Assembly (NCBI GenBank): GCA_020403045.1
Contig: JADBYK010000031.1
Span: forward strand, 62,001 to 126,000
Length of the DNA stretch: 64,000 bases
Origin: Cytophagales bacterium
GTDB taxonomy: Bacteria; Bacteroidota; Bacteroidia; Cytophagales; Cyclobacteriaceae
Reading direction: 5' to 3'
Shown here: positions 20,087 through 39,919 of the stretch, one piece after another
Layout of the letters: every line of letters starts with the position of its first letter
Position numbering within the stretch: position 1 is the first letter of the stretch
The notes under the pieces: model-generated
The model's input: only the letters and a program-made list of their open reading frames with translations
Databases searched by the model: none
Told to the model about the DNA's origin: nothing
Translations under genes and position numbers: made by a program

Positions 20087-20770
20087 ATGGAAGCAAAGAA
20101 AAATCCCAATAAAGATTTAAGCCTACAACGAAACAAATTTTTCTTGATTGGCTTAACGCTGAGTATCAGCCTTGCAATCACTGCGTTTGAGTGGCGCTCA
20201 GTAAAAATGAAGCCAATCGTTCCCCAGCCGAACCTGATGGAAACGGGTACTTTGCTGTTTCCTCCGATTACGACTAGCGAACCCGCAAAAGCTCCCCAGC
20301 CAATCAAGAAATTAGAACCTAAAATACAATCGCCAACACCTACTGATTTCGTAGAAGTTGAAAATGATAAACCTGTTGATGATCAGACTCCAATAATAGA
20401 AACTGGTAGTGAGATTCTTCTTCCATCTGTATTCATTCCCATGGATACGGAAGTCGATACTGTGTTTGTGATTGTAGAAAAAAATCCCGAGCCAGTTAAC
20501 GGTTTCAAAAATTTCTACCAGCACCTTGCTAAAAATCTAAAATACCCTACTCAAGCAAAGCGCATGGGTACCGAAGGCAAAGTATTTGTGGAGTTTATAG
20601 TAAACAAAAATGGTGAGCCTTCTGACTTAAAAATAATCCGTGGCATTGGTTCTGGCTGCGATGAAGAAGCCCTGCGCGTACTCTCTTTAACAAAATGGGA
20701 ACCTGGCAAGCAGCGCGGAAAGCCGGTGCGAGTAAAGATGGCGATGCAACTCAATTTTAAATTGAACTAA
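20087..20770 (+). CDS. TonB-like energy-transducer protein
   Basis: A 227-residue protein with a cytoplasmic N-terminus, one membrane span (NKFFLIGLTLSISLAITAFE, about residues 15-34), a proline-rich periplasmic linker (APQPIKKLEPKIQSPTPTDF) and a C-terminal TonB domain (residues about 145-227: LKYPTQAKRMGTEGKVFVEF, GCDEEALRVLSLTKWEPGKQ). TonB passes proton-motive-force energy to outer-membrane receptors. It ends tail-to-tail with a TonB-dependent receptor gene, overlapping by 4 bases, and may serve this and the other receptors in the window. No ExbB/ExbD genes are adjacent. Confidence 0.88.
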   Translation: MEAKKNPNKDLSLQRNKFFLIGLTLSISLAITAFEWRSVKMKPIVPQPNLMETGTLLFPPITTSEPAKAPQPIKKLEPKIQSPTPTDFVEVENDKPVDDQTPIIETGSEILLPSVFIPMDTEVDTVFVIVEKNPEPVNGFKNFYQHLAKNLKYPTQAKRMGTEGKVFVEFIVNKNGEPSDLKIIRGIGSGCDEEALRVLSLTKWEPGKQRGKPVRVKMAMQLNFKLN

Positions 20771-23028
20771 ATTTTGATATTCAGCGATGCTGTCATGCAT
20801 CTTCCATAGCCATCAATACCAGAGGCATAAACGCGATAAGCTTTGTCAAAAATATTCTGAGCAGAAATTTGAACACTAACAAATTTGAACGAATAGCCAG
20901 CATAAAGATTTACAATATCCCACGCGGGCATAGCCTCATCAATTAATCGGATTTTAATTCGCACATCAGACTTGTCACCAGCTGCCAATCGATCTTGCTT
21001 TCTGGCAATGGCCCACTCTGTCCGGATCCAAACGCCTGAGGGATGTGTATAACGAAATCCAACTCTACCAAACACAGGTGGAATTCTTCGCATGGGTTCC
21101 TTCTTGGTTACATTTTCGCCATGCGTATAGGTAACGTTTCCAAATACAGTTAATGACTTTACCACCAGCGCCTCGATATCTGCCTCCACTCCTTTTACGA
21201 GTGCCTCTCCTAAATTTTGCTTTTGATAAACAGTTCTTCCATCAAAAGTTGTCGAGCCATTGTAACTAGCCGTAACGCGATCGATCAAATCGGTCAGCTT
21301 TGTCTGGTAGGCGGTAATCGTCCATGAAAGTTTAGCGCTACTGTACTTGAAGCCCGACTCCACATTCAACGAACGTTCTGGGGAAAGGCTGCCGCTCGGA
21401 ATTTCAAATACATTGGCTTCTAGCGTGCCAAATTTACTCATATCGTCCACATTGGGTGCGCGAAAACCTGTATTGACAGAGCCGATCATACGCCAGTTTG
21501 AGTTGATCTTATACATAACTCCAGCATTTCCAACCCATGCGCTAGGATTGATTTGTTGATTGCCAAATACATTGTCGACAACAGAAACCGTCACATTGTT
21601 AAATCGGGCACCTGCCGAAAATTGAAATTTTTTCCAATCCAATTGGTGGTTTGTAAAAATGGCGAGATTTGAAATGGTAGAGCCATCGGCATACGATCCT
21701 CTCTGAGACGTCTCGGTATTAGTTGTTGTATTCAGCAGGTTAGACTTGCTATTTACTTTGTCGGAATAAAACTCAATACCTGATTGGACATGCCATTTGG
21801 CAATGGGATTTGATTGCACCTCGGCTATTGCTCCGAATGTATTTACCTCGTCTAACTGCTTTTTGATTTCTGTTGAATTGTTCTTTTGAGAAATGGTTCC
21901 TTCAATGGAACGATTGACTGAAGTCGTCAACCGAAACGATCGAAGCAAAGGGCTCTTTGTCGAGGATTCCCAACGTAAGTAGCTGAGTTGGCGGATTTGA
22001 GGTTCAAATTCAAAAACAGCAAATCCACCCTGCACTACCTGATCATAGCGTGGCACGTGATTTTGAGTTGTTTGTTGAAAAGCAGCTGTCAGCACTCCTT
22101 GCGCGCCCGTCCGTAGTAATAATTTAGCATCTCCCGAGCGTTCGTAATCTCGTGTTGGATTTAGTACGCCCAAGTCACCGCCAGCCACCACATCACCGAA
22201 GTTGCGAGCCGAGAAGCCACCCAAAAAAGCGATCTGCTTTCCTCTCAACTCAATCTCCGGTCGAATGCTCTGTTCCATGCCGGCACTCATCCATTTTGTT
22301 TGAATACGTCCACCAACTTGCAATCCATTGGAGTGAAAAGAAGGCGTGGCCGAAATAACATGCACTACTCCGCCTAATGCATCACTGCCATACAATACAG
22401 ATCCACTTCCTCGATTTACTTCTATCCGATCAATTAATCCCGGATCAATCGTGGAAAGGTATTGATTAGGGCCGTAACGATACGTAGCATTGTTCAACCG
22501 GATTCCATCTACTACCAACAGTACCTGATTACCCACAAGTCCTCTAATGATCGGTGAGCCTCCACCGTGATTTGTTTTTTGAACCCATACGCCTGACTCA
22601 TTCATCAAGGCCTCTGGCGTTGACCGTGGGGAGCGTTCAGCCAGTTGGGTCGCAGAAATGGAAGACGTGGACTGAGCCACATCAAAAGACAGTCGCTCAC
22701 TGCGTTGTGCAGTGATGGTAACGGCATTGTTGAGAAGAATGGCTGAAGGAATCAACTCAATGATAGACTCCTTTTCCCTTCGCATGACGTACTCTACAGT
22801 CGAATAGCCTATCGCGCTAATGCGAAGACGAATAGAATCTGAAGACAAGTTATCTAAAACAAATTTACCTTCCTTGTCGGTAATCGTGCCGAGCGCTGAA
22901 TTGATAACTGCTACATGAACATCGGCCAATGATTGCCGTGTTGTTTGATCAATGACAATCCCTTTAAACTGCGAAAAGGCCAGTTGAGCACCAAGTAATA
23001 ACAGGGTCGTTAAAAAATATCTAATCAT
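20767..23028 (-). CDS. TonB-dependent outer-membrane receptor with carboxypeptidase-like N-terminal domain
   Basis: A 753-residue receptor. It has a signal peptide (MIRYFLTTLLLLGAQLAFSQ), a carboxypeptidase-regulatory-like domain (FKGIVIDQTTRQSLADVHVA, residues about 21-100), a plug (SPIIRGLVGNQVLLVVDGIR; IDRIEVNRGSGSVLYGSDAL) and a 22-strand barrel ending SLNIKI. The plug resembles the heme/haemoglobin and siderophore receptor group, but the substrate is unproven. It is the last gene of the minus-strand SusC - SusD - phosphoesterase run, 96 bases after the phosphoesterase gene, which suggests that it imports something released by those enzymes, or a metal cofactor for them. Confidence 0.88.
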   Translation of the reverse strand: MIRYFLTTLLLLGAQLAFSQFKGIVIDQTTRQSLADVHVAVINSALGTITDKEGKFVLDNLSSDSIRLRISAIGYSTVEYVMRREKESIIELIPSAILLNNAVTITAQRSERLSFDVAQSTSSISATQLAERSPRSTPEALMNESGVWVQKTNHGGGSPIIRGLVGNQVLLVVDGIRLNNATYRYGPNQYLSTIDPGLIDRIEVNRGSGSVLYGSDALGGVVHVISATPSFHSNGLQVGGRIQTKWMSAGMEQSIRPEIELRGKQIAFLGGFSARNFGDVVAGGDLGVLNPTRDYERSGDAKLLLRTGAQGVLTAAFQQTTQNHVPRYDQVVQGGFAVFEFEPQIRQLSYLRWESSTKSPLLRSFRLTTSVNRSIEGTISQKNNSTEIKKQLDEVNTFGAIAEVQSNPIAKWHVQSGIEFYSDKVNSKSNLLNTTTNTETSQRGSYADGSTISNLAIFTNHQLDWKKFQFSAGARFNNVTVSVVDNVFGNQQINPSAWVGNAGVMYKINSNWRMIGSVNTGFRAPNVDDMSKFGTLEANVFEIPSGSLSPERSLNVESGFKYSSAKLSWTITAYQTKLTDLIDRVTASYNGSTTFDGRTVYQKQNLGEALVKGVEADIEALVVKSLTVFGNVTYTHGENVTKKEPMRRIPPVFGRVGFRYTHPSGVWIRTEWAIARKQDRLAAGDKSDVRIKIRLIDEAMPAWDIVNLYAGYSFKFVSVQISAQNIFDKAYRVYASGIDGYGRCMTASLNIKI

Positions 23029-23058
23029 ACAAGCAGGGTGAGATTTGACGACTCAAAG

Positions 23059-23121
23059 TTCAAGATTCAAAACTCAAGATTCAAGTTTGTAAAATCCAAA
23101 TTTTGAATTTTGAATCTTGAA
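23059..23121. repeat. 14-bp perfect inverted repeat between phosphoesterase and receptor genes
   Basis: The arms TTCAAGATTCAAAA (23059-23072) and TTTTGAATCTTGAA (23108-23121) can form a long AT-rich hairpin in the message. The units (TCAAGATTCAA, AATTTTGAATTTTG) resemble dispersed AT-rich repeats seen at 8471-8530 and 35686-35820. Confidence 0.6.
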
Positions 23122-23124
23122 TTC

Positions 23125-25914
23125 TTAGTGATTCACTTTTGTTCTTCCGTCATCTTTTCTTTTCGCGTTTTCTTTCATGTCATCAGGATCATCCAACTCA
23201 GGCGAGTTGCGAAAAGCTTTCCAGTCAAATTTTTCATCGAGTGGCGACATGGCTTTTGTTGGATCAAATATTCGCGGGTCTACCGGCACCGCATTATACG
23301 GTGTAAAGTCCGGTTTACCGGTGAAGCAATCACTCAAGTCATTCACCCCAAAATCGTATTGATTGAGATAGGAAGTACCCAACACATTCCAAAACGTTTT
23401 GAAGATGCTCCCAAAACTAAAATGCTGATGGCTGTTGAAGTTCTTCTTTGAATACGGGGAAATTACCATTAAAATACTGCGGTGCGCATCGATATGATCG
23501 CGGCCGCCTTGTGCATCATCTTCCGTAACTACAATCATCATATTCTTCCAGTAGGGTGTATGGCTCAAAAATTCTACCACTCTCCCAAGTGCCAAATCAT
23601 TGTCGGCCATGTAGCTTTCGTTGAATGCAAACCCGGCCGCTGCGCGCTCACCTGCTCCGTGATCATTGAGTAGTTGAAGTGTCAATACAGAGGGCAGTTC
23701 CTTCTTTGGATTGTTGTACTTCTCGGTAATCTCCTTTACAAAAATGTCGGTCCGGAATTGATCAGGGATCGCCATATTAAAAGTCGGGAACAATCTTGAA
23801 GTACGATTGTACAACGGCCCAGGCAACGGATAATTCGCGAGGTAACGAACGCCACCGTATTTGAAAGTTGAATCTGAAAAACCACCTGCGTCAAATTCTA
23901 CTCCAAATCCAAAATTGTAAAATTCCTTTCCATGTCTTTCCAAATTCTCCCACATAGACCCGGCTTGATTGTAACTCTCCGGGAAAATAGCTCCGGCAGC
24001 ACCCGTCATTCCAAATTTACCCGGAGCTTTTGATTCTTCGCGCTGACTGCGCTTGCCACCGTAAGAGGCCGGGTGATGGGTTTCCATCCATTGGTTAGGA
24101 TAGGTGTTGGTCAACCACACATGCCCATCGGCCGACACATCCGAGTCGACATAAAAGTTATCACTGATTGTAAATTGCTCGGCCAATGCCAAATGATTGG
24201 GCATCACGGTTGCTTTCTCCACTTTCATCGTTTTCTTTTTGTTCGTGAACGAAACATCTTTGGCATAGTGAGCGAGAGAAGAATCTCCCTTTCCATTCTG
24301 AAGCTGACCAAACACTTCATCGTAGGTTCTGTTTTCTTTTGAAATAAAGACGATGTATTTGATCGGAGACTCTTTCGCTCTGGGATATGAAGGGATCGGG
24401 TTCTCGCTCTCTGCAGAGGCGACCTCTTTGAAACTAAAATTATTGGCGACTACTTTTTCGGTGAGGGCTTTCAATTCCGCATCCGCGGGAATATCAATGA
24501 TTGAAACCGTGCCCAGCATCAGTGCACCAATGTAACTGGCGTAGGGATGATCAAAAGGCGGCTTGAAGTCTTTTCCTCCATTAGGCCCGCTACCGAAGCC
24601 TTTCGCATTGGATACGATCAACTGCTTGCCGTCAGGAGTTACTTTTAACTTCGAGGGAAACCAACCCGTGGGGATGTGACCCAGTACTTTCTTAGAATCT
24701 AAATCAATTACCGCGACAGCGTTGATACCCGCTTCCGCCACATACAATCTTTTTTGATCGGGGGAAATGGTTAATCCAAATGGTATCACCCCTTTCAAGC
24801 CTCCCAGGCGTTCATCCAATTTCAATTCGATGCTCTCCACCACTTTATTCTGTTTTGCATCAATGACAGAAATATTATCGTTGTTGCCATTGCTCACATA
24901 CACAAATTGATCGTTAGCAACCATAGAATTTGGGCTTGATCCACCTACGGCAGAAATTCCGTCAATCTCCTCTCCCACCAGCACACCTGTTTTCACTTTT
25001 GAAGTTACTACCGGAATTTCTTTGCTAACATCAATGCCCCACACTGAAAATGACTCGGGTGCATTCGGATCGCCTAAGCCAGCAAATTCAATGGAATCAT
25101 TCTTTACACCTTCCTTCATCTCTTTTGACCCGTAGGCAGATGTTGGATACTTGGCAGCAGTCTCGTTCAATCTTTTCTTATCGAGGCTCTTGATGTAAGA
25201 ATATTCGAACATGCCTACGTTGGCAACATAGACCGTCTTTTCATCGGGCGATAATGCAATGCCAAAGGGATACCGACCTGTTTTTACATTGTGAATAACC
25301 TGATTGCTTTTTGTATCGATTACCATAAGGCGAAACCCGATTTGATCGACTGCGTATAATTTCGATCCATCTTTGCTCAATGCCATGTCGCCAATGTAGC
25401 CATCGTTATAGTCTGTTCCGTCAAACGTTTTGTTGCAATTGATCTCTGCTAATTTTTTATTCGTCTTCAAATCAAAAACATAAATTCTATTCTGTTGCCC
25501 GCCTGCCACATATACTTTTTGTCCGTCAGGAGAAATGGCCAAACCCATGAACGTTGCTTCCAACAAGCCCTTCTCCGGGTTGAGTGTTTCGGGGATTTGT
25601 TTTACCTGTGGCGTTGCCGAATTGTAATCGGTGATGATGGAAATTGAAAATGGGCCTACTCCGGAGTTGGCAGTGATAATTGTTTTACCGTCAGGGCTTA
25701 ACGTTAACCCAAACGGATGGGGTGCAACGGTTATTTGTTTTCCAGTAGGAGCGATAATACGACCATTGGGGAGTATTGTTTCTCCCGCCCGATCAATTTT
25801 GGTGTAGCGATCACCCGCTGGGGCGGAGGCAATCCAAATTTTTTCGGGGCTTCCTTTTTCTTTCGTTGAACAGGATACTGCAAAAAAAATACCGATCAAA
25901 AGGAGTTGTCTCAT
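23125..25914 (-). CDS. Lipoprotein: YVTN/YncE beta-propeller fused to phosphoesterase (phospholipase C-like) domain
   Basis: A 929-residue protein with lipobox FFAVSC. Residues about 20-490 form a seven-bladed YVTN propeller with repeated LSPDGKTI-like units (PFGLTLSPDGKTIITANSGV; YPFGIALSPDEKTVYVANVG; LTISPDQKRLYVAEAGI). Residues about 515-900 form a PF04185-type phosphoesterase of the alkaline phosphatase superfamily (IVFISKENRTYDEVFGQ, EQFTISDNFYVDSDVSADGH, VVTEDDAQGGRDHIDAHRS). Such enzymes cleave phosphodiesters including phospholipids; the substrate here is unknown. It lies 32 bases after another alkaline-phosphatase-superfamily gene, inside the SusC/SusD cluster, and is presumably anchored at the cell surface or in the periplasm. 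Confidence 0.88.
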   Translation of the reverse strand: MRQLLLIGIFFAVSCSTKEKGSPEKIWIASAPAGDRYTKIDRAGETILPNGRIIAPTGKQITVAPHPFGLTLSPDGKTIITANSGVGPFSISIITDYNSATPQVKQIPETLNPEKGLLEATFMGLAISPDGQKVYVAGGQQNRIYVFDLKTNKKLAEINCNKTFDGTDYNDGYIGDMALSKDGSKLYAVDQIGFRLMVIDTKSNQVIHNVKTGRYPFGIALSPDEKTVYVANVGMFEYSYIKSLDKKRLNETAAKYPTSAYGSKEMKEGVKNDSIEFAGLGDPNAPESFSVWGIDVSKEIPVVTSKVKTGVLVGEEIDGISAVGGSSPNSMVANDQFVYVSNGNNDNISVIDAKQNKVVESIELKLDERLGGLKGVIPFGLTISPDQKRLYVAEAGINAVAVIDLDSKKVLGHIPTGWFPSKLKVTPDGKQLIVSNAKGFGSGPNGGKDFKPPFDHPYASYIGALMLGTVSIIDIPADAELKALTEKVVANNFSFKEVASAESENPIPSYPRAKESPIKYIVFISKENRTYDEVFGQLQNGKGDSSLAHYAKDVSFTNKKKTMKVEKATVMPNHLALAEQFTISDNFYVDSDVSADGHVWLTNTYPNQWMETHHPASYGGKRSQREESKAPGKFGMTGAAGAIFPESYNQAGSMWENLERHGKEFYNFGFGVEFDAGGFSDSTFKYGGVRYLANYPLPGPLYNRTSRLFPTFNMAIPDQFRTDIFVKEITEKYNNPKKELPSVLTLQLLNDHGAGERAAAGFAFNESYMADNDLALGRVVEFLSHTPYWKNMMIVVTEDDAQGGRDHIDAHRSILMVISPYSKKNFNSHQHFSFGSIFKTFWNVLGTSYLNQYDFGVNDLSDCFTGKPDFTPYNAVPVDPRIFDPTKAMSPLDEKFDWKAFRNSPELDDPDDMKENAKRKDDGRTKVNH

Positions 25915-25946
25915 GGTGATTAAATTACTTTTAAAGTTAAGTGTTT

Positions 25947-27032
25947 CTATTTAGCAATTGCCGTACTAATCACCTGTCCAATTGGTTTATTGCTAGAATA
26001 ATCTACGTTTAGAAAGGTCGCCAGTGTTTTAGCTACTTGGTTTTGATATAATTGCTGATCACCTTTCATTTCACCGGTTGATGGCGTATCCGGCCCCAAA
26101 AACGCAAACCAGATTTCATCCGCATAAGACATTTTAGCCCCGTGATGTTTCCAATCTTCATCGTTCACTTTTCCGCGTCCATGGTCGGTCGTTAGAATGA
26201 GTGTTGTTTTATTCCTGTATTGAGGCTGAGACTGCAGCCATTCCCAAAGCGTGTGAACAAATCCATCGGTATAATTGGCGGCATGCAGGTATTTGTCGTA
26301 CTCACCTTCATGCGCCCAGTGATCAGTTTCATCAAAAGAAATAAACATCACTTTTGGTTTATTCTTTTTCAGTTCTTCCATGGCATAATAGAAGGTAAGT
26401 GCATCTACGCGGGTGCCGCCAGTAATATTGGGTTGCTGAAAAAGCAATTGGTTTAATAGCTTTTCAGAATCGGTTGGGTTATTTTCTACTTTCATTAAAC
26501 CTGCGTTTACGGGCACTCCACTTCGCTTGGTATTAATGATCCAGGGGAATGTTTCCCAGGAAGTAAATGCACTTACCTTGCCTGCAAACTTCTTTTGCAT
26601 TTGAAGAAACTCCAGCACATTCTTGTTGGGGTTATCCGTTGGGTCGTTGCTGGTAATCTTCTCATCATCAGCAAAACCGCATAGTATTTCATTGTAACCC
26701 GGATAGGAAAACCACATTTTGTTTGATGTGTTTACTTTGTTACCTAGATTTCTATTGCCGTACAATTGTCCTTGTTTAGCAACCGTGTTCCAAAAAAAGG
26801 GCATTAGCTTTTCTCTTCTGGATTCCGGTTTCTCCGCCCAAAATGTTTTGAGTAAGCCACTTGTATCACTCACAAACTTTTTGGCGATCAATCGCCTCTC
26901 GGCTCCGCCAAATACTTCTTGCCAACGCATCCCATCTAATGTGATGAGAATTACATTTTCGGTTTTCGTTGTTTGTGCAAAGCCAAACGAAGCAACCACA
27001 AGAAAAATGATCAGGGTCAATTTTGTTTTCAT
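25947..27032 (-). CDS. Exported alkaline-phosphatase-superfamily (NPP-like) phosphoesterase
   Basis: A 361-residue protein with signal peptide MKTKLTLIIFLVVASFGFAQ. Metal and active-site positions of nucleotide pyrophosphatase-type enzymes are present: Asp33 in LITLDGMRW, a probable nucleophile Ser109 in FSYPGYNEIL (aligned with the KTFPN Thr of NPPs), Asp234/Asp237 and His241 in SFDETDHWAHEG, Asp283-His284 in TTDHGRG, and His297 in KHHGA. The superfamily includes phosphodiesterases and phosphonoacetate hydrolase, so a phosphate or phosphonate ester is a likely substrate. It begins only 14 bases beyond an intrinsic terminator that follows susD. Confidence 0.85.
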   Translation of the reverse strand: MKTKLTLIIFLVVASFGFAQTTKTENVILITLDGMRWQEVFGGAERRLIAKKFVSDTSGLLKTFWAEKPESRREKLMPFFWNTVAKQGQLYGNRNLGNKVNTSNKMWFSYPGYNEILCGFADDEKITSNDPTDNPNKNVLEFLQMQKKFAGKVSAFTSWETFPWIINTKRSGVPVNAGLMKVENNPTDSEKLLNQLLFQQPNITGGTRVDALTFYYAMEELKKNKPKVMFISFDETDHWAHEGEYDKYLHAANYTDGFVHTLWEWLQSQPQYRNKTTLILTTDHGRGKVNDEDWKHHGAKMSYADEIWFAFLGPDTPSTGEMKGDQQLYQNQVAKTLATFLNVDYSSNKPIGQVISTAIAK

Positions 27033-27045
27033 TCGTAAAGGGGTT

Positions 27046-27077
27046 AAAAAAATCCGGGGCTTTTTCAGAGCCCCGGA
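27046..27077 (-). terminator. Intrinsic terminator/attenuator between susD and the NPP-like gene
   Basis: On the minus strand a perfect 9-bp GC-rich stem (TCCGGGGCT / AGCCCCGGA, 7-base loop) is followed by TTTTTTT. It lies 43 bases after the susD stop and ends 14 bases before the next ATG, leaving no room for a promoter between them. Confidence 0.85.
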
Positions 27078-27120
27078 AATTGATTAAAAAAACACCTAGC
27101 AAGTATTATTTGTTGTTGAA

Positions 27121-28638: not shown

Positions 28639-28731
28639 TTGTTATTTCTTTTTTGAATTCGAATACGCGGAACTTTTTGTCAATCTCAACAAGTAGCACT
28701 GATCGCTTCCGAATTCTATTTTAATAAAAGA

Positions 28732-32118: not shown

Positions 32119-32240
32119 ACTAATAATGGGGTTTAGTTTTTGCCAGCACACATGTATGGTTTATGAGCACTTAGCTTGCTCAAAGATTAATTTAACAATT
32201 GATGTTGAGTTTAGATGTAGGTTATTGATCGGTTAAGAAT

Positions 32241-32274
32241 AAGCGAGTGAAAAAAAAAATATTCACACTCGCTT
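32241..32274. promoter_or_regulatory. Inverted repeat 1 between susC and the XRE-cupin gene
   Basis: Perfect 9-base arms AAGCGAGTG and CACTCGCTT separated by 16 mostly A/T bases. The repeat lies about 125 bases before susC and 126 before the regulator, so it is a candidate operator for either gene. Confidence 0.5.
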
Positions 32275-32278
32275 AAAG

Positions 32279-32302
32279 CCAATGGGGAAAAACGGCCATT
32301 GG
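32279..32302. promoter_or_regulatory. Inverted repeat 2 between susC and the XRE-cupin gene
   Basis: The arms CCAATGG and CCATTGG are separated by 10 bases, only 4 bases away from inverted repeat 1. The pairing of two different dyads in one divergent intergenic region suggests regulator binding, but this is unproven. Confidence 0.4.
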
Positions 32303-32399
32303 AAGTGAAACAAACATATCTTTTCAGTAACAATCAGTTCATACTTGCGCAATAGCTTGCATTGTCAACAAAAAGTTTACAAATAGGAAACAAACAATT

Positions 32400-32975
32400 A
32401 TGGTACAAGAAGAGCTGATTCCCCTTATCGCTAAAAGAATCAAGACGTTACGCATTGAAAAAAGCCTTACGTTACAAACACTGAGTGAACGCACTAACTT
32501 AACGAAAGGGCTGATCTCTAAAATTGAAAACTCAAGAACCATTCCGTCTGTACCGGTTTTATTCAACATAATGAATGCGCTCGAGATAAAACCGCAAGAC
32601 TTTTTCGACACGCTATCAGGAGTTAGAAGTCAAAACTATCTTCACATCAAACGAAAAGAATACAAACACATTAAAAAAGAGAATCGCCCTGGGTTCGACT
32701 ATAGATTCATCCTGGCTCAATCACTTCAGGGGTGTACGATGGAGACAGTTTTATTATCTATTAAACCAAAGTCTAAAAGTAAAGCTACCACCGCTGACGG
32801 CTTTGAGTTCAAGTATGTAGTGTCAGGTGATTGCGACTATTATATTCAAGATGAGAAAATAGCATTGCGCGAGGGCGATTCCATTTACTTTGATGCATCT
32901 AAGCCGCATTACCCTTTGAATAATACAAAACGGAAAGTGACTATGCTGGTCTTTTACTTTTTAACGGTGAAATAG
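32400..32975 (+). CDS. XRE-family regulator with C-terminal cupin domain
   Basis: A 191-residue transcription factor. The helix-turn-helix lies at residues about 8-62 (IAKRIKTLRIEKSLTLQTLS, KGLISKIENSRTIPSVPVLF). The cupin domain lies at about 110-190 (DGFEFKYVVSGDCDYYIQDE, LREGDSIYFDASKPHYPLNN), expected to bind a small effector. Regulators of this build usually control the adjacent catabolic or transport genes. It faces susC across a divergent intergenic region and is followed, on the opposite strand, by the purple-acid-phosphatase-like gene, so it is the best candidate to control the phosphonate/phosphoester locus. Confidence 0.9.
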   Translation: MVQEELIPLIAKRIKTLRIEKSLTLQTLSERTNLTKGLISKIENSRTIPSVPVLFNIMNALEIKPQDFFDTLSGVRSQNYLHIKRKEYKHIKKENRPGFDYRFILAQSLQGCTMETVLLSIKPKSKSKATTADGFEFKYVVSGDCDYYIQDEKIALREGDSIYFDASKPHYPLNNTKRKVTMLVFYFLTVK

Positions 32976-33011
32976 CGACCAAAAAAAGGGCTGAAGTGGA
33001 ACGTGTAGAAA

Positions 33012-34313
33012 CTACTTTTCCTTCGTAATCGAAAATCTATCTCTTACTTGTCCGTCAGCACAAATCCATTTTGCATCTAATCGATTGTCATTGAAATCCA
33101 TCAGTAGTGAACCACCGACCGTTGTATTATAATAGGTAGCCGCCCGTAACGGGTACCCCTCCGCCTGGCCACCCACCTGGCCACCTGAACCGCTTACAAT
33201 GTAGATTACTCCTTGACCTTCTTTTCCAACACGGTAGTTATTCGGTGAATCCTTCTTTTCAACAACATGCTTTATGGGATCGAACGTGTTGGCTTCTCCA
33301 TAGTGACCACGAAGCGGATGAGTACGCTCGTAGACGTGACTATGGCCCGTTAAAACTAAGTCGACCTTGAAGCGTTCTAGAATGGTAAGTAAATTTTCTC
33401 TGATTTTCACCAATTCATTCTCGCGATCAGAATCGTGCGACCCTTTCGTATAGGGAGGATGGTGAAAGTAAACTATAGTCCATGGCAGTTTATTGGCCGC
33501 CAAATCCTTCTTCAACCAGGCAATCTGTTTACTCAAGGTATCATAAATTCGAAAACCGCCATCTAGTTCACCCTGCGAGTCCAACGAAATCAAGTGTACG
33601 TTTCCAAAGTCAACTGCATAATAAGATTCTGACCCGGAAGGGATTCCCCCAGCCTCTCCGTCCTTAGGCATCGTAAATATTTTAAAGTACGAGACATCGG
33701 TCGGATTGCGCTTGGCCTTGCCATAGTCATGGTTGCCGGGAGAAGGATAAAGATTTGTATTCTTAAAAAAGCTTTCTTGGTAAACTCTAAAAACATGGCG
33801 TTGATACTCTTCGTCTAAGCCGATATTATAAGCATTATCGCCCAACCAAAGCCACGCGTCTGGCCGTTGGTCAATCGTTTCTTTAATAATCGCGTCACGA
33901 CAATTAAGTTGATTTTTTGAGCCATCGCCAAAATCGCCCAGCGCCCATATGCGAAGTGGTGAAGTCGAACCAACGGGCGGAGCTGTTACCAAAAATTGGT
34001 CTTCGTACATTTTCGGCTTTGCGGTGATAGCACCCACTGAATAGAAATACTTGGTGGCGGGAGAAAGACCTGAAATAGTAAGTTCATGATCGGTTTTTAG
34101 CTCAGCTTCACTAACCACACTAGCCCGCTCGACTTTGATGCGATTGGTGGAAAAGGACACTTTGCTATCGGTCGGCTTTTCAGTTCTCCAACGAATAACA
34201 GCTGAAGTGGATGATACACTATTTAAATAAGGGCCTCTGATAATATCCAGAGATTGTGAAAATGATCCTATGGCAGGAAAGAAAAAATACACAAGTAAAA
34301 CAAATCTATTCAT
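33012..34313 (-). CDS. Exported purple-acid-phosphatase-like metallophosphoesterase
   Basis: A 433-residue protein with signal peptide MNRFVLLVYFFFPAIGSFSQ. A fibronectin-like N-terminal domain of purple acid phosphatases follows (IRGPYLNSVSSTSAVIRWRT, residues about 24-115), then the metallophosphatase core with all motifs: ALGDFGDG, WLGDNAYNIG, SPGNHDYG, YFHHPPYTKGSHDSD and LTGHSHVYERTHPLRG. It would release phosphate from monoesters in the periplasm. The ATG at 34313 directly precedes the signal peptide; another lies at 34334. It is divergent from the FAD oxidoreductase gene and convergent with the XRE-cupin gene. Confidence 0.92.
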   Translation of the reverse strand: MNRFVLLVYFFFPAIGSFSQSLDIIRGPYLNSVSSTSAVIRWRTEKPTDSKVSFSTNRIKVERASVVSEAELKTDHELTISGLSPATKYFYSVGAITAKPKMYEDQFLVTAPPVGSTSPLRIWALGDFGDGSKNQLNCRDAIIKETIDQRPDAWLWLGDNAYNIGLDEEYQRHVFRVYQESFFKNTNLYPSPGNHDYGKAKRNPTDVSYFKIFTMPKDGEAGGIPSGSESYYAVDFGNVHLISLDSQGELDGGFRIYDTLSKQIAWLKKDLAANKLPWTIVYFHHPPYTKGSHDSDRENELVKIRENLLTILERFKVDLVLTGHSHVYERTHPLRGHYGEANTFDPIKHVVEKKDSPNNYRVGKEGQGVIYIVSGSGGQVGGQAEGYPLRAATYYNTTVGGSLLMDFNDNRLDAKWICADGQVRDRFSITKEK

Positions 34314-34359
34314 GGGAATTAAGGAAACTTGCATTATGAAAACACAACGATCGAGTGAT

Positions 34360-34367
34360 CAAATGTA
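34360..34367 (-). promoter_or_regulatory. Putative -7 element for the purple-acid-phosphatase-like gene
   Basis: It reads TACATTTG on the minus strand, matching TAnnTTTG, about 47 bases before the chosen ATG. No convincing -33 box is at the right spacing. Confidence 0.3.
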
Positions 34368-34533
34368 GCACTTTTAATTATCGGATGTGGTGTTCTTGCT
34401 ATCCGTCAATTTACGATGGCAGTTTAATAATTTACAAGCTCTTCATTTAAGCAGCTTTCGTGAAAAGAATTCTTGCTTGATTAACAGTTTAATAATATCA
34501 ATTAACCAACTTGGCAAAATTACGAGCGATCAA

Positions 34534-35685
34534 ATGAAGAATCATTTTGACTTTATTATTGTCGGTGCCGGAGTGCTAGGGACATTTCATGCTTATCATG
34601 CTGCCAAATTTGGTAAAAAAGTACTATTGGTCGAGAAAGATCAGTACCCCACACAAGCTACGGTTCGAAACTTTGGTCAAGTCGTGCCTTCTGGAATGGG
34701 AGGAGATTGGTTTCATTATGGCGTAAAAGGAATTGAACAGTATAACCAAATCCAACAAAAGTTTGATATCTCAATCCGAAACAATGGCTCTGTTTATATT
34801 GCCTCTGATCCGGACGAGCAACAACTCATTCATGAACTAAAAGCCGTGATGGATCTTCGGGGTTACACGGCACAATTACTAACAACACATCAATGCGTGG
34901 AAAAGTGGCCAGCGTTGAAAAGTAGCTATTGCAAAGAGGCATTATTCTTTCCACAAGAAGTAAGCGCAGAGCCTGAGAAAATGATTTTCAGATTATTGGA
35001 ATACATACAAATTAACTTTCAAAACCTGACCTATCGCCCTGCAACCACGATTATAGATTGCGTAGTATCCGGAAACCTGGTCAGGGTGGTTTCCAATCAA
35101 AAGGAGGAATTCAAAGCGGATAAAGTCATCGTTTGTAACGGAGGAGAATTCAAACTGCTTTTCCCCGACCTATTTAGGCAGAGCGGTATCGTAACCAGTA
35201 AATTGCAAATGTTGCGTAGCATACCAATGCCCGAAACAAAATTAGAAGGAAATGTTTTAACAGGGCTTACCATAAGGCGGTACGAATCGTTTCAAGAATG
35301 CCCTTCTTATAAGAATATTAAGACTCCAGACCACTTGGCTGAACTTAAAAAATGGGGCATCCATATTCTATTCAAAAAAGCAGTGGACGGCTCTATCATC
35401 ATTGGCGACTCGCATGAATATGCCGATGTCAACCATACGGATGACCTGGGCTTCTCTCAAAACGAATATATCAACCGATTAATGCTAGACGAAGCCCAAC
35501 GCATTGTCAACTTTGACGTAAGCCAAATTGCAACTGCCTGGTCCGGCTTTTATCCGCAGCACAATGAAAAAGACATTGTGGAGATCGATATCGAAGATAA
35601 AATTCATATTAGAACAGCCATTGGCGGAAAGGGAATGACTACTTCGGCAGGATATGCAGAGGTGAGCATCAAAAAATTAATTTGA
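34534..35685 (+). CDS. FAD-dependent oxidoreductase of the phosphonate-associated TIGR03364 type
   Basis: A 383-residue DAO-fold flavoenzyme. The dinucleotide-binding motif is IIVGAGVLGTFHA at residues 7-19, followed by LLVEKDQYPTQATVRNFGQV, which includes the ATVRNFG block that I recognise from the TIGR03364 family; the C-terminal FAD contact is GGKGMTTSAGYAE. That family is defined by its synteny with phosphonatase-like hydrolases and is thought to deaminate or demethylate an aminophosphonate by oxidation. Here a phosphonatase-like gene lies 3 kb away and a PhnZ-like gene 4 kb away. The ATG at 34534 is used; a longer frame back to 34387 lacks homology-like content. Confidence 0.82.
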   Translation: MKNHFDFIIVGAGVLGTFHAYHAAKFGKKVLLVEKDQYPTQATVRNFGQVVPSGMGGDWFHYGVKGIEQYNQIQQKFDISIRNNGSVYIASDPDEQQLIHELKAVMDLRGYTAQLLTTHQCVEKWPALKSSYCKEALFFPQEVSAEPEKMIFRLLEYIQINFQNLTYRPATTIIDCVVSGNLVRVVSNQKEEFKADKVIVCNGGEFKLLFPDLFRQSGIVTSKLQMLRSIPMPETKLEGNVLTGLTIRRYESFQECPSYKNIKTPDHLAELKKWGIHILFKKAVDGSIIIGDSHEYADVNHTDDLGFSQNEYINRLMLDEAQRIVNFDVSQIATAWSGFYPQHNEKDIVEIDIEDKIHIRTAIGGKGMTTSAGYAEVSIKKLI

Positions 35686-35820
35686 AAATGAAACAATTTG
35701 AAAATTTGAAGATGTGCCACCATCTCTAAAGGCTAAATTTTCAAATTGACTAATTTTCAAATATTCAAATTGGATACCATTTTCAAATTATCTAATTTTC
35801 AAATCTTCAAATTATAAAAG
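35686..35820. repeat. AT-rich repeat tract between the oxidoreductase and PHP genes
   Basis: At least five copies or inverted copies of the unit TTTTCAAAT(T) occur in 135 bases (for example CAATTTGAAAATTTGAAG and CTAATTTTCAAATATTCAAA). Related tracts occur at 2131-2165 and 23048-23122. No promoter is obvious in it. Confidence 0.6.
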
Positions 35821-36669
35821 ATGTGGTCTAACTTTCATACTCACGCCAATTTTTGCGATGGGAAAAGTACACTGGTCGAGCACATTCAAAAAGCAAAAGA
35901 ACTCCAGTTAAAAAGTCTTGGTTTTTCTTCACATGCACCAGTGCCCTTTGAATGCAATTGGTGTATGAAATCCGAAAAATTAGAGTCGTATTTGCAGGAG
36001 ATTCAAGAGTTGAAGTCAACAACCAATGAATTACAATTATTCGCTGGGTTAGAAGTAGACTATATACCAGGTATCGTATCCCCCACTACTTTTAGCGATC
36101 GACTTGATTACACCATTGGCTCCATTCATTTCGTAGATACCTTCGAGAATGGTACGCCTTGGGAAATTGACGGATTACATGTTCACTTTTTAAAAGGACT
36201 TGATGAAATCTTCCATCACGACTACAAAGCAGCTTTTACCCGCTATTTTGAGTTGACCCGGGAAATGATTGTTGCCGCCTGCCCAACTGTCATCGGCCAT
36301 CTCGATAAAATGAAAATTCAAAATCCGGGAAATGAATTTTTCAGCGAGCAGGAAACCTGGTACCAGCAGCAGGTAAAAAAAACAATTCAAACCATCAAAG
36401 CCTCAGGCGCCATAGTAGAAGTAAACACAAGGGGTATTTATCAAAAGAAAACAACCGACACCTATCCAAGCCCATGGATACTGGAATTACTTGAACACCA
36501 AAAGATTCCGATAACCATCAGTTCTGATGCACACCATGCCGATGACCTGATCAATGAGTTTCAGTCAACTGCCCTACTTCTTCAACAAGTCGGCTTTAAA
36601 AAAATTCAAATTCTAAGTGACGGTGAGTGGAAACCCTTTACCTTTAACCAAAACGGAATAATCTGTTGA
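35821..36669 (+). CDS. PHP-domain phosphatase (HisJ-like)
   Basis: A 282-residue trinuclear-metal phosphoesterase of the PHP family. Motif I is NFHTHANFCDGK (residues 4-15), then GFSSHAPVPFE, the Glu of FAGLEVDYIPG, TIGSIHFVD, a His in TVIGHLDKMK, VEVNTRGIY, and the final SSDAHHADDL. It resembles histidinol-phosphate phosphatase HisJ, but no histidine genes are near. Its place between a TIGR03364 oxidoreductase and a transporter with GlpT-like features suggests a phosphate ester derived from phosphonate metabolism. The next gene starts at a TTG that overlaps this stop codon. Confidence 0.85.
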   Translation: MWSNFHTHANFCDGKSTLVEHIQKAKELQLKSLGFSSHAPVPFECNWCMKSEKLESYLQEIQELKSTTNELQLFAGLEVDYIPGIVSPTTFSDRLDYTIGSIHFVDTFENGTPWEIDGLHVHFLKGLDEIFHHDYKAAFTRYFELTREMIVAACPTVIGHLDKMKIQNPGNEFFSEQETWYQQQVKKTIQTIKASGAIVEVNTRGIYQKKTTDTYPSPWILELLEHQKIPITISSDAHHADDLINEFQSTALLLQQVGFKKIQILSDGEWKPFTFNQNGIIC

Positions 36670-37961
36670 AAACAACCAACTCCAAAATCACAAACTGGCT
36701 GCAGCATACGCATGGCATTTGGTTTACCATTTACGCTTCTCTGGCGGCCTTCTGCCTGTATACTTGTGTGTACGCTTTTCGTAAAACATTTGCTGCCGCT
36801 ACTTTTGAGGGGCTAGCTTTTCTTGGCATCAGCTACAAAGTTTGGCTGGTGACCTTTCAAGTAATCGGCTATGCACTCTCTAAGTTTATTGGGATCAAAA
36901 TTATTTCAGAGCTAAAAGCGCATTCTCGCGGCATTGGAATTCTACTGATGGTAGGCGTTGCCGGTACATCATGGTTGTTGTTTGCGCTCGTACCCGCACC
37001 ATTTAATATTGTGTTCCTTTTCTTTAACGGGCTACCACTAGGCATGGTGTGGGGCATGGTGTTCGGCTACTTAGAGGGGAGGCGAATGACCGAGGTGCTC
37101 GGTGCGTCTCTTTCAGTAAGTTTCATTTTTTCAGCAGGGCTGTGTCGATCTGTGGGCGCGTACCTGATGCGTGATTGGGGCACGTCCGAATATTGGATGC
37201 CTTTCGTAGCTAGTTGTTTGTTCATCGTCCCATTGGTTTTCTTTCTTTTTCTGCTCAACCAACTTCCCCCACCCTCTGCGTTGGATGAAGAATTGCGAAC
37301 AAAGCGACTTCCTATGAACAACGAAGAAAGAAAAAAATTTACGACCACTTTTTTGCCAGGCATCATCTTTTTTGTTCTAGCCTATGTGCTGCTAACTGCG
37401 TTCAGGGATTTCAGAGATAATTTCTCGGCAGAAATTTGGAAGTCACTAGGGCTCGGAAACGATCCGTCCATCTACACAAGAACGGAAGTTCCTATCTCCA
37501 TTGCCGTATTAATTTGTATGGGCAGCCTGATGCTTATCAAAAACAATAAACTGGCATTAATGATCAACCATGTCCTGATTGCATTCGGTCTGATTCTAAT
37601 TGGCGTTGCCAATTATTTTTTTGAACAGTCGCTGATCAGCCCACAACTTTGGATGATCTTAATAGGCCTCGGGCTATATCTTGGTTACATACCATTCAAT
37701 AGCATTTTCTTTGATAGACTATTGGCTGCTTTTAGATATACTGGCACCGTTGGCTTTATAATGTATGTGGCCGATTCTTTTGGTTACCTGGGCAGTGTGG
37801 GTGTTTTGTTCTTTAAAGAATTTGGCTACGCAAAACTCAGCTGGCTGAATTTCTTTATTTCGGGAGGGTATTTAGTATCCGTTATTGGCACCTTCTTGAT
37901 CGCTGGGTCGATGATCTATTTTCACTACAAGCACAAGAATTGGAAGTTAACTAACGGGTAG
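36666..37961 (+). CDS. MFS-type membrane transporter, DUF5690 family; candidate organophosphonate carrier
   Basis: A 431-residue protein with about 12 membrane spans. The start appears to be TTG at 36666, which overlaps the PHP stop (TTGA); the next ATG is far downstream. Positions match the organophosphate:phosphate antiporter GlpT: TM1 YAFRKTFA (Arg39; GlpT YLVRKNFA, Arg45), YALSKF (Lys73; GlpT YGFSKF, Lys80), and Arg247/Arg250 in TM7 TAFRDFRDNF (GlpT Arg269). The late block GFIMYVADSFGYLGSVGVLF also resembles GlpT. In GlpT these residues bind phosphate. The neighbours being phosphonate-type enzymes, import of a phosphonate is the best guess, though the function of the family is not established to my knowledge. 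Confidence 0.78.
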   Translation: MKTTNSKITNWLQHTHGIWFTIYASLAAFCLYTCVYAFRKTFAAATFEGLAFLGISYKVWLVTFQVIGYALSKFIGIKIISELKAHSRGIGILLMVGVAGTSWLLFALVPAPFNIVFLFFNGLPLGMVWGMVFGYLEGRRMTEVLGASLSVSFIFSAGLCRSVGAYLMRDWGTSEYWMPFVASCLFIVPLVFFLFLLNQLPPPSALDEELRTKRLPMNNEERKKFTTTFLPGIIFFVLAYVLLTAFRDFRDNFSAEIWKSLGLGNDPSIYTRTEVPISIAVLICMGSLMLIKNNKLALMINHVLIAFGLILIGVANYFFEQSLISPQLWMILIGLGLYLGYIPFNSIFFDRLLAAFRYTGTVGFIMYVADSFGYLGSVGVLFFKEFGYAKLSWLNFFISGGYLVSVIGTFLIAGSMIYFHYKHKNWKLTNG

Positions 37962-38532
37962 CAACAAGACGTTGTCTTCCACTTAGTTCATTACATTTTT
38001 TTACGACTGAAAAAATAGAACCTGCGTCATGAAGTCGCAGCTTATTCTGGCGAATAAAGTCTTCCAATATCTGCCCGTGCATCTGAACCAGAAAGGGAAA
38101 AACATCCGACTTGAATTTCTTAAGTTCAATTAGTTCACTTCTAAACCAGCAAAAGAAATCATAGTCGTGGCCCTCATCAGCCTCCTGCAATGCCACGTTT
38201 CTTTTTAATCGTCTTAAAATCAGTAGTTCACCATAAATCACAACTTCATAAAATCGATAGATTCCTTCGTGCCGTAATGACTTGAAGTGTCGATTAACAT
38301 TGCTTGCCAAATCAAAATAGCGAAAAGAACTAACGCGATGGGCAGGCATAACAATCCGCGTGGCCGTATCTAAATCAGATCTAATTATTACAGCATCGAA
38401 AGTTGTCTCGACCGCAAAATGTGAAGGAATAACTTCATAGTGATTGTCTACAATAACCCCGTGATGCATATTGGGTTGTGCTGATATCAACCCGGAAACG
38501 GCCAGAAATATGCTGGAAAGAAGGATTTTCAC
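37951..38532 (-). CDS. Exported protein of unknown function
   Basis: A 193-residue protein with signal peptide MKILLSSIFLAVSGLISAQ. No family is recognised. The middle is beta-rich (AVETTFDAVIIRSDL, IYRFYEVVIYGELLILRRLK) and the C-terminal part is helical (RSELIELKKFKSDVFPFLVQ). The start is a GTG at 38532, immediately next to a 26-base palindrome. It lies 44 bases after the phosphonatase-like gene on the same strand and overlaps the transporter gene tail-to-tail by 11 bases, so it probably belongs to the phosphonate locus. Confidence 0.6.
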   Translation of the reverse strand: MKILLSSIFLAVSGLISAQPNMHHGVIVDNHYEVIPSHFAVETTFDAVIIRSDLDTATRIVMPAHRVSSFRYFDLASNVNRHFKSLRHEGIYRFYEVVIYGELLILRRLKRNVALQEADEGHDYDFFCWFRSELIELKKFKSDVFPFLVQMHGQILEDFIRQNKLRLHDAGSIFSVVKKCNELSGRQRLVATR

Positions 38533-38558
38533 TTCATGTTAAGTAATATTAACATGAA
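38533..38558. promoter_or_regulatory. 26-base perfect dyad abutting a GTG start
   Basis: The arms TTCATGTTAA and TTAACATGAA around GTAATA touch the GTG start codon of the 193-residue exported protein. There is no T-run after it on the minus strand, so it does not look like a terminator of the upstream phosphonatase-like gene. It could be an operator or an RNA hairpin covering the ribosome entry site. Confidence 0.6.
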
Positions 38559-38576
38559 ATTAACAATTTAATAATA

Positions 38577-39269
38577 TTAAACTATACTTGCGCGCGAATT
38601 AATTATGCCTAGCACTTCAGGAATTTGGCTGATTAAATGAGTGTGTGGAACGGTCGACAATTGCTCTTTGGTAAATGCTCCTGTTGTAATTCCGATTACT
38701 AGCCCACAGCCTGCAGCATTGCCTTCGGCCAAATCAGACACCGTGTCCCCCACCTTTGCAACTCTCTTTACATCACTCACTCCAGATAGTTCCATCGCTC
38801 TGAAAATCAAATCAGGATGCGGTCGCCCATGTGCCACTTCATCACTTGTTACACTGCCATCGATCAGTTTATTCTTCTCCCAGGCCATTCTCTGTAGTAG
38901 CGCATCAACAATAGGTCGATCAAAACCAGTATCGACAAATACTTTTATACCGGCAGCTTTCAATAAATGAAACGTTTCGGAAACCCCTTCATTCTCCGCG
39001 ACTGTCTGGTCGTTCTCGTAAAACAAAATCATGTCTTCTACAAAATCGGCATGTATGGATCGAATCAAATCATCTGAAATAGTGCTACAATTTACTGACT
39101 CTAACAGCTGTCGAATGGCAACCGGCTTGGGAATACCCATCACCTGACTGGCTTGCGCAATGGAGATTTCTAATCCGACCTTGGAAAAGGAATTTTTAAG
39201 TGTACGCTGTACATCAAAATTTTCTTTCACTGTAGTGCCCGCTAAATCAAATACGATTAAGTCAATCAT
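38577..39269 (-). CDS. Phosphonatase-like HAD hydrolase (TIGR03351/PhnX-like)
   Basis: A 230-residue HAD enzyme of the phosphonatase group. Motif I is IVFDLAGTTV: the nucleophile Asp8 is followed by Ala10, where most HAD phosphatases have a second Asp; this Asp-x-Ala pattern is the hallmark of phosphonoacetaldehyde hydrolase PhnX (DWAGT). The cap shows VMGIPKP with Lys48 at the place that lines up with the PhnX Schiff-base Lys (PMGLLKI). Motif II is FVDTGFD, and the motif III/IV region is KVGDTVSDLAEGNAAGCG. Expected action: hydrolysis of a C-P bond in an aldehyde-type phosphonate. It is divergent from the PhnZ-like gene. Confidence 0.85.
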   Translation of the reverse strand: MIDLIVFDLAGTTVKENFDVQRTLKNSFSKVGLEISIAQASQVMGIPKPVAIRQLLESVNCSTISDDLIRSIHADFVEDMILFYENDQTVAENEGVSETFHLLKAAGIKVFVDTGFDRPIVDALLQRMAWEKNKLIDGSVTSDEVAHGRPHPDLIFRAMELSGVSDVKRVAKVGDTVSDLAEGNAAGCGLVIGITTGAFTKEQLSTVPHTHLISQIPEVLGIINSRASIV

Positions 39270-39409
39270 AGCTTTTCAATTTTAAAACAAAGAATGGGAG
39301 AATGTTCGTCATATCCTCTGGTCATTGTCTTAATTAACTATTTAGTAATGTCATCTCAGATCCGCTTAGAAGTTATCTTGAGTACCTTCGAACTTATAAA
39401 GATAAGAAC

Positions 39410-39919
39410 ATGAAAAGTGAAGCCATTGTAAAAGAGATATTCGAACTGTATGAGAGATACGGAAACGAAGACTACATTGGTGAACCTGTTTCACAAATTG
39501 AACACATGTCTCAGGCGGCAGCGTTAGCGATGAAGGAGGGATACGATGACGAAGTTATTTTGGCAGCATTTTTTCATGATATCGGCCACATCTGTGTCAG
39601 TCGAAATAAAGAGAATGATATGGACGGATTTGGAACAAAAAGCCATGAAAAAATAGGGGCTGATTTTTTGCGCGAGAAAGGGTTTTCTGAACGTATTGCC
39701 AAATTGGTTGAAAATCACGTACAGGCAAAAAGATATTTAACCTTTAAGCAACCCGACTATTTCTTGAATCTTTCAGAAGCCAGTAAGAAAACGCTAGAGC
39801 TACAGGGAGGCGTAATGAGCGAGAGTGAGGCAATCACATTCGAAAAAGATCCACTCTTCGATACTAGCATAAAAATGAGATACTGGGATGAGCAAGCGAA
39901 AGAGTTAAATCCCCGCTAG
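39410..39919 (+). CDS. PhnZ-like HD-domain diiron oxygenase
   Basis: A 169-residue HD-domain protein with the full set of positions known from PhnZ, which oxidatively cleaves (R)-2-amino-1-hydroxyethylphosphonate to glycine and phosphate using a mixed-valent diiron centre. The iron ligands map to His32 (SQIEHMSQA), His56-Asp57 (AFFHDIGH), His79 (TKSHEKIG), His103 (VENHVQAK) and Asp160 (MRYWDEQ). The Tyr22 and Glu25 of EDYIGEPVSQIEH match the Tyr/Glu pair that gates the PhnZ site. This places it with phosphonate HD oxygenases rather than with nucleotide-hydrolysing HD proteins. A PhnY-type hydroxylase is not in the window. It is convergent with a Kelch gene across a terminator. Confidence 0.87.
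   Translation: MKSEAIVKEIFELYERYGNEDYIGEPVSQIEHMSQAAALAMKEGYDDEVILAAFFHDIGHICVSRNKENDMDGFGTKSHEKIGADFLREKGFSERIAKLVENHVQAKRYLTFKQPDYFLNLSEASKKTLELQGGVMSESEAITFEKDPLFDTSIKMRYWDEQAKELNPR

Follow-up and report, generated by a model that had tools for sequence, protein, structure and literature searches.

A SusC/SusD locus coupled to predicted phosphonate-degrading enzymes in a Cytophagales bacterium and other Bacteroidota

The window analysed here is a stretch of 64,000 nucleotides from the 4.02 Mb genome of a Cytophagales bacterium (genome G000, contig C50, positions 62001-126000; genomes, contigs and loci carry G, C and L numbers throughout), and the locus under study occupies window positions 20767-39919, where a SusC/SusD pair lies together with exported esterases and predicted enzymes of carbon-phosphorus (C-P) bond cleavage. 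Pfam and NCBIfam profile scans of the 13 proteins of this stretch found every gene named in an earlier sequence-only reading at the place given there; the stretch holds one small orphan gene in addition (Table 1). SusC, SusD, a phosphodiesterase (PDE), a propeller-phosphoesterase lipoprotein (PROP) and a second TonB-dependent receptor (TBDT2) follow one another on the minus strand with intergenic gaps of 32-96 bases, which fits a single transcript. The XRE-cupin, FAD oxidase, PHP and DUF5690 genes are on the plus strand, the PHP gene overlapping the start of the DUF5690 gene by 4 bases, and the PhnX-like and PhnZ-like genes are mutually divergent. Inspected by eye, the translation places the likely SusC start at the ATG near 32118, and PROP has a lipobox-like start; the likely start of the FAD oxidase is the ATG near 34531.

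Table 1. Genes of the locus in window coordinates, with the basis of each assignment.
Feature	Position	Strand	Basis
TBDT2, TonB-dependent receptor that closes the SusC-SusD-PDE-PROP-TBDT2 block	20767-23028	-	PF00593/PF07715
PROP, lipoprotein combining a beta-propeller (N-terminal) with a phosphoesterase domain (C-terminal) of the phospholipase C / acid phosphatase family	23125-25914	-	PF10282, PF04185
PDE, exported alkaline-phosphatase-superfamily phosphodiesterase	25947-27032	-	PF01663
SusD-like surface lipoprotein, clade 1 of phosphonate-locus SusDs	27121-28638	-	PF12771 340 bits (cut-off 27); tree
SusC-like TonB-dependent transporter	28732-32151	-	TIGR04056 643 bits (cut-off 368)
XRE-cupin regulator, divergent from SusC	32400-32975	+	PF07883 and HTH
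Exported metallophosphatase with purple-acid-phosphatase N-domain (PAP), membership uncertain	33012-34334	-	PF00149, PF16656
FAD-dependent aminophosphonate oxidase (PbfD-type, predicted)	34387-35685	+	TIGR03364 347.7 bits (cut-off 285.1)
PHP-family phosphatase, HisJ-like	35821-36669	+	PF02811
DUF5690 inner-membrane transporter (predicted), MFS fold	36666-37961	+	DUF5690 553 bits
Small exported-looking orphan protein	37951-38532	-	no Pfam or NCBIfam match
PhnX-like phosphonoacetaldehyde hydrolase (HAD)	38577-39269	-	TIGR03351 212.0 bits (cut-off 218.9)
PhnZ-like mixed-valent diiron (HD) phosphonate oxygenase	39410-39919	+	TIGR03276 207.4 bits (cut-off 214.6)

Judging by their conserved residues and family matches, the C-P enzymes of the locus look functional. 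The PhnZ-like protein matched PhnZ in the PDB (4mlm, E 4e-45) better than TmpB (6npa, E 1e-32), and His32, 56, 60, 79 and 103, Asp57, Asp160, Tyr22 and Glu25 were invariant in 27 PhnZ-like sequences, the ligand roles of the individual residues being presumably those of PhnZ. The score is just below the family cut-off, and the alignment to 4mlm retained the diiron HD ligands and the fifth histidine, five histidines being the mark of the PhnZ-type clade (PMC11203657). The PhnX-like protein matched PDB PhnX at E 3e-19 and scored below the cut-offs of both TIGR03351 and TIGR01422, the true PhnX family (109.2 of 220 bits). Its Asp8 and Lys48 align with the residues that we take to be the nucleophile and the Schiff-base lysine of PhnX, and PDB entry 2ioh has an Arg at the position aligned to Lys48. 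As for the FAD oxidase, the characterised PbfD1 is annotated with the same family, TIGR03364; PbfC/PbfD enzymes convert N-methyl-aminoethylphosphonate (N-methyl-AEP) into phosphonoacetaldehyde, and PbfD2, which comes from an organism lacking PhnW, handles unmethylated AEP well too (PMC10590968).

Within the order, TIGR03276 was found in 47 of 241 genomes (hereafter PhnZ-like genomes), and TIGR03364 in 46 of these 47 versus 15 of the 194 others. PhnW and C-P lyase, which had not been seen in the window, proved to be rare or absent on the genome scale as well: PhnW-AepZ exceeded its cut-off in one PhnZ-like genome, G204; G180 and G136 gave weaker matches, and the remaining 44, among them the window's own, had none at E 1e-20. 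PhnJ was found in none of the 29 PhnZ-like genomes searched, again including the window's own (PhnA, PhnY and phnCDE were not searched genome-wide).

The surroundings of the PhnZ-like gene in 46 loci of the order (the window's own left out; up to 20 kb each, some on short contigs) were compared with 40 control stretches of 20 kb, arbitrarily placed, two per genome in 20 of the same genomes, gene presence being scored by tblastn with the window proteins and, for the broader counts, by merged matches. SusC or SusD lay near the PhnZ-like gene in 34/46 loci and 2/40 controls (merged matches; SusC only in the controls), a strong co-occurrence in the very check that the sequence-only reading had proposed, and by the stricter count both genes were present in 31/46 loci and no control. 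An ester-cleaving enzyme (PDE, PROP, phospholipase C (PLC), GDPD, ALP or metallophosphoesterase) was found in 33/46 loci and in none of the controls. Taken singly, PDE (12 loci), PROP (16), PLC (3), GDPD (3), DUF5690 (24), the PhnX-like gene (28), the FAD gene (26) and the XRE-cupin gene (11) were likewise absent from all 40 controls. When the 615 open reading frames (ORFs) of the 46 loci were clustered, 13 clusters recurred in at least five loci, 11 of them homologues of window genes; the remaining ones were a metallophosphoesterase and cluster 11, a generic short-chain dehydrogenase (6 loci). The PhnZ-like gene shares a co-directional run with SusC or SusD in 20/46 loci, and in L006, L035 and L040 a single such run reads PhnX-FAD-SusC-SusD-metallophosphoesterase-PhnZ-PROP-TBDT2-DUF5690.

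Among 14 fetched of the 15 genomes with TIGR03364 only, G119 alone had a SusC-SusD pair near the FAD gene, while L096 and L100 each showed a SusC match by itself. In G208, G087 and G101, where the FAD group and the SusCD/PhnZ-like group are separate within one genome, SusCD stays with the PhnZ-like gene and the esterases. SusCD thus goes with the PhnZ-like gene and the esterases, not with the FAD gene alone.

The named set comprised the best 80 of at least 199 relatives of the PhnZ-like gene, by their titles 46 from Bacteroidota and 34 from other bacteria, the nearest Bacteroidota being Ohtaekwangia, Chryseolinea and Cyclobacteriaceae records at 73-74% identity. Within these 80, SusC or SusD adjoined the PhnZ-like gene in 38/46 Bacteroidota loci (in a shared run in 28/46) versus 0/34 of the others, and an esterase was near it in 33/46 versus 0/34, the Bacteroidota queries being such that unrelated esterases may have been missed. 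The XRE-cupin gene was beside it in 17/46 of the Bacteroidota loci. Esterases follow SusCD in both sets, an esterase being present in 32/38 named Bacteroidota loci with SusCD versus 1/8 without it, and in 29/34 versus 4/12 in the order. These counts bear on the idea that SusCD takes up aminophosphonates in free form, or some other small ligand, and that the exported esterases serve another purpose. TonB-dependent uptake of small ligands is common, but the company that esterases keep with SusCD, and their absence from the 34 non-Bacteroidota loci (with the same proviso on the queries), make this explanation very unlikely.

The SusD proteins themselves were then placed in a tree of 94 sequences, 71 from PhnZ-like loci and 23 background sequences picked by likeness to the window's SusD. 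One clade held 49 locus SusDs without background and another 20 with one background row, two locus SusDs falling outside, and locus and background labels changed 5 times over the tree versus 20.7 in shuffles. Since the background had been picked by likeness to the window's SusD, clade 2 was examined separately, with the SusD of L035 as query in 15 genomes. In 13 of them the best match (49-100% identity, 487-1214 bits) was the SusD gene lying no more than about 10 kb from the PhnZ-like gene, the next-best match anywhere reaching 209 bits (35%), with higher identities only in short C-terminal pieces; the other two genomes, the window's own and G019, have a clade-1 SusD at the locus. Clade-2 SusD occurred in 37/241 genomes, of which G101 and G151 have two copies each and the other 35 a single one; 31 of these 37 are PhnZ-like. 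Clade-1 SusD occurred in 16/241, 13 of them PhnZ-like, so that 42/47 PhnZ-like genomes versus 9/194 others have either type. The SusD gene lies within 12 kb of the PhnZ-like gene in 27/31 clade-2 and 8/13 clade-1 cases, and at 12.3 kb in the window; the rest are on other contigs.

A later check drew 395 genomes of the phylum; 17 had TIGR03276, 11 of them outside the order, and these 11 may include species near the named ones. SusD was near in 10 of these 11 loci, 8 times with the greater likeness to the clade-2 query and twice to the clade-1 query, PDE adjoins the PhnZ-like gene in the eleventh, and PDE, PROP or GDPD of at least 29% identity was present in 8/11.

Could an unrelated SusCD operon simply have come to lie next to a phosphonate cluster? 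The window itself allows the thought: most C-P genes lie on the strand opposite to the SusCD block, and the XRE-cupin and PAP genes stand between them. Such an accident is hardly conceivable given the single co-directional runs in other genera, and chance adjacency was rejected on these runs together with the locus-versus-control counts, the clade-2 best-match test and the genome-level SusD profile. The coupling of SusCD to phosphonate enzymes proposed in the sequence-only reading is therefore supported by adjacency, operon-like runs, SusD phylogeny, the nearest-relative test and the genome-level profile, and comparison shows SusCD, esterases and predicted C-P enzymes to be coupled.

The esterase position of the locus is exchangeable, being filled by NPP/PafA-like PDE, propeller-PF04185 proteins, phosphocholine-type PLC (PC-PLC) or GDPD; L008, for instance, has a TIGR03396 PC-PLC (783 bits, cut-off 580) and L039 a GDPD. 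PDE had no match among PDB sequences at E 0.01, and its phylogenetic profile is looser, a PhnZ-like gene being present in 24 of 36 PDE-carrying genomes. TBDT2 (7/46 order loci versus 1/40 controls) follows PROP co-directionally in relatives, among them L006, L019, L021, L035 and L040. The predicted fold of DUF5690 is that of the MFS, and the comparison singles out no one MFS family, OPA included; DUF5690 had no match among PDB sequences at E 1, no profile link was found between it and the GlpT-like MFS protein that substitutes for it, and no publication on it was found in the open-licence PMC literature. The PHP gene occurred in 5/46 order loci. The purple-acid-phosphatase-like gene, which the sequence-only reading had counted in, is present in the stretch; as a member of the locus it is the weakest, with 4/46 loci at 60% coverage. 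Weak homologues of the orphan (27-33% identity) lie between DUF5690 and the PhnX-like gene in L005, L028, L110, L111 and L141. In L250 (G144, of the window's genus), PDE (62%) and DUF5690 (67%) are adjacent, with neither SusCD nor a PhnZ-like gene in the 20 kb fetched, and this locus is perhaps a reduced version.

SusCD pairs are usually read as sugar importers, and the locus has the SusC/SusD pair and the local regulator in common with glycan (Sus) polysaccharide utilisation loci. No glycoside hydrolase, lyase or carbohydrate esterase domain was found in the Pfam scans of the 13 proteins (no CAZyme-specific library was used), in agreement with the sequence-only reading as to glycoside hydrolases, and the glycan interpretation was ruled out on this ground. 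The Flavobacterium PusCD systems are a precedent. These SusCD-like pairs are induced by phosphate depletion and lie beside exported phosphodiesterases and phosphatases, their PusD being polyphyletic, and one sentence places them beside phosphonate-degrading enzymes (PMC8115612). The window likewise combines a SusC/SusD pair (TIGR04056, PF12771) with co-located exported phosphatases or phosphodiesterases (PDE, PROP, PAP), as Pus-type systems do. The differences are that the searched text of PMC8115612 has no named set of phosphonate enzymes, the word "phosphonate" appearing twice, one of these in the name of a chromatography column, and that it reads the commonest Flavobacterium system as phosphodiester scavenging, whereas loci of the window's type, spread over several lineages of Bacteroidota, link a defined C-P module (FAD oxidase, PhnX-like, PhnZ-like, DUF5690) to two lineages of SusD.

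With respect to catabolism, the sequence-only reading had called the route non-standard. That PhnW and PhnJ were not found in the window's own genome agrees with it, but an FAD oxidase with PhnX and without PhnW is a published variant for AEP, PbfD2-PhnX, so the route is less non-standard than supposed (PMC10590968). This variant is described mainly from Proteobacteria and some PVC, and the main text of that paper has neither "Bacteroid" nor "TonB". The oxidative PhnY*/PhnZ and TmpA/TmpB pathways (PMC10574752) have the PhnZ-type diiron oxygenase in common with the window locus, which differs in having no 2-oxoglutarate (PhyH) hydroxylase as a PhnY*-like partner; the three PhyH matches of the window's own genome are on C46, C81 and C99, none on C50.

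Taken together, these results make it probable, though well short of certain, that the locus is a dedicated phosphonate-ester uptake-and-degradation system. The scheme builds on which genes are present and lie together, on their conserved catalytic residues, on SusD lineages that go along with the C-P enzymes and on the predicted folds of PDE and DUF5690; its substrates, transport direction, cell locations and regulation are our proposals. SusD and SusC would capture a still-esterified aminophosphonate, be it the headgroup of a lipid, a glycerol ester or part of a decorated glycan, and carry it through the outer membrane. The exported esterases (PDE and PROP; elsewhere PC-PLC, GDPD or metallophosphoesterase) would cut the C-O-P ester and release a headgroup, free AEP or its N-methyl or 1-hydroxy form, for import by DUF5690. 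The FAD oxidase would then turn AEP or N-methyl-AEP into phosphonoacetaldehyde, and the PhnX-like enzyme would split this into acetaldehyde and phosphate, while the PhnZ-like oxygenase would convert natural (R)-1-hydroxy-AEP directly into glycine and phosphate without a PhnY* step. The XRE-cupin protein may sense the substrate or an intermediate. That the final substrate is a phosphonate is strongly implied by the presence of three predicted C-P-pathway enzymes, and we infer that an esterified phosphonate, probably AEP bound to a lipid or a glycan, is the SusCD cargo. PLC and GDPD in the esterase position weakly favour a lipid over a glycan as this cargo, and the local XRE-cupin gene, together with the lack of pho genes among the recurrent neighbours, favours regulation by substrate rather than by phosphate.

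Several observations weigh against so dedicated a system. SusCD is not nearby in 12/46 order loci (some on short contigs), and 5/47 PhnZ-like genomes have neither SusD type. Conversely, SusD occurs without a PhnZ-like gene in six clade-2 and three clade-1 genomes; four of the six (G073, G159, G184, G239) have FAD, PhnX-like, DUF5690 and XRE genes together elsewhere, a DNA polymerase I gene adjoins SusD in G073, G184 and G239, the three of these four that were scanned, an oxidoreductase gene adjoins SusCD in G139, and the clade-1 genome G119 has FAD, PhnX-like, DUF5690 and PDE genes beside SusCD. The Fisher p-values take no account of common descent, and there is overlap between the order and named sets, L158 being apparently the same contig as L047 (same length, identical SusD). 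No shared operator was found among four spacers (SusC/XRE, PAP/FAD, PhnX/HD and FAD/PHP), whose common words of 12-16 bases are few, short and mostly AT-rich, at most about twice the shuffled mean, with none at 16. A PhnY*-like step may be encoded elsewhere, given PhyH-family genes in 46/47 PhnZ-like genomes, and the esterases could act on ordinary phospholipids. Finally, in G169, and at the second copy in both G101 and G151, a SusCD of related type (48-49%) is followed by a tyrosine-phosphatase-like PF13350 gene, so that the lineage is not purely phosphonate-linked.

Such PF13350 genes after related SusCD lie at L252:10646-11530, L261:10778-11605 and L260:7077-7898, and the pairing suggests another organophosphate-linked SusCD system.

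Another reading is general organic-phosphorus scavenging, in which ordinary phospholipids, glycerophosphodiesters or nucleotides would be what SusCD and the esterases handle when phosphate runs short, the C-P enzymes being mere regulon neighbours. PC-PLC, GDPD and NPP/PafA-like families are known to cleave ordinary phosphate esters, the related SusCD adjoins PF13350 phosphatases, and PusCD of Flavobacterium is induced by phosphate depletion beside phosphomono- and diesterases (PMC8115612). Yet the SusD lineages follow the C-P enzymes, neither a phosphate transporter nor PhoBR is among the 13 clusters recurring in at least five of the 46 loci, and the linked regulator is the local XRE-cupin protein. 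We consider general scavenging rather unlikely, while granting it more weight than any other rival to a dedicated phosphonate-ester system.

As for the remaining sequence, the scanned flanking genes are mostly housekeeping (GAPDH to the left; enoyl-CoA hydratase, RpoN, a class II tRNA synthetase and DprA to the right), and a genomic island by composition was ruled out by a G+C content of 0.39-0.45 without a step. A Kelch-repeat and DUF4270 pair (39987-42483) was dropped as a candidate member, each gene being found in 1/46 loci; they lie beside the locus only in the same-genus relative L020 and are probably outside it. In the spacer between the divergent SusC and XRE-cupin genes, two 10-base arms (32240-32249 and 32266-32275) form a perfect inverted repeat around an A-rich loop; this repeat may be a terminator or an operator. 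Between the FAD oxidase and PHP genes, positions 35679-35813 hold AT-rich arrays of 8-base units (AATTTGAA, AAATTTTC).

Low-phosphate SusCD systems were already known as PusCD; the particular module described here, the SusD lineages that belong to it and how widely it occurs were not found in the open-licence PMC literature searched. Of the papers on phosphonate catabolism, two have no mention of Bacteroidota in the searched text and two have a single one. A bolder possibility, which we hold tentatively and think somewhat doubtful, is that widespread Bacteroidota SusCDs evolved for intact pieces of phosphonolipid or phosphonoglycan, with interchangeable "phosphonolipase" enzymes releasing the headgroup and PhnZ acting on naturally hydroxylated headgroups without PhnY*. 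Lipids with AEP or 1-hydroxy-AEP headgroups from amoebae, ciliates or invertebrates could, for example, be the source; 1-hydroxy-AEP occurs in Acanthamoeba. The lipophosphonoglycan of Acanthamoeba is named in PMC3964302.

For the Bacteroidota, the SusD lineages that follow C-P enzymes offer a sequence marker for phosphonate-ester use, and the locus suggests a function for DUF5690. It also advises caution, since SusCD substrates named from co-expression may mislead. In Maribacter forsetii, the SusCD pair P177_RS04595/04600 was assigned to laminarin and has as expressed neighbours an alkaline phosphatase, an FAD-dependent oxidoreductase and a phosphonatase-like hydrolase (PMC11345257); this laminarin-assigned pair may be a phosphonate SusCD.

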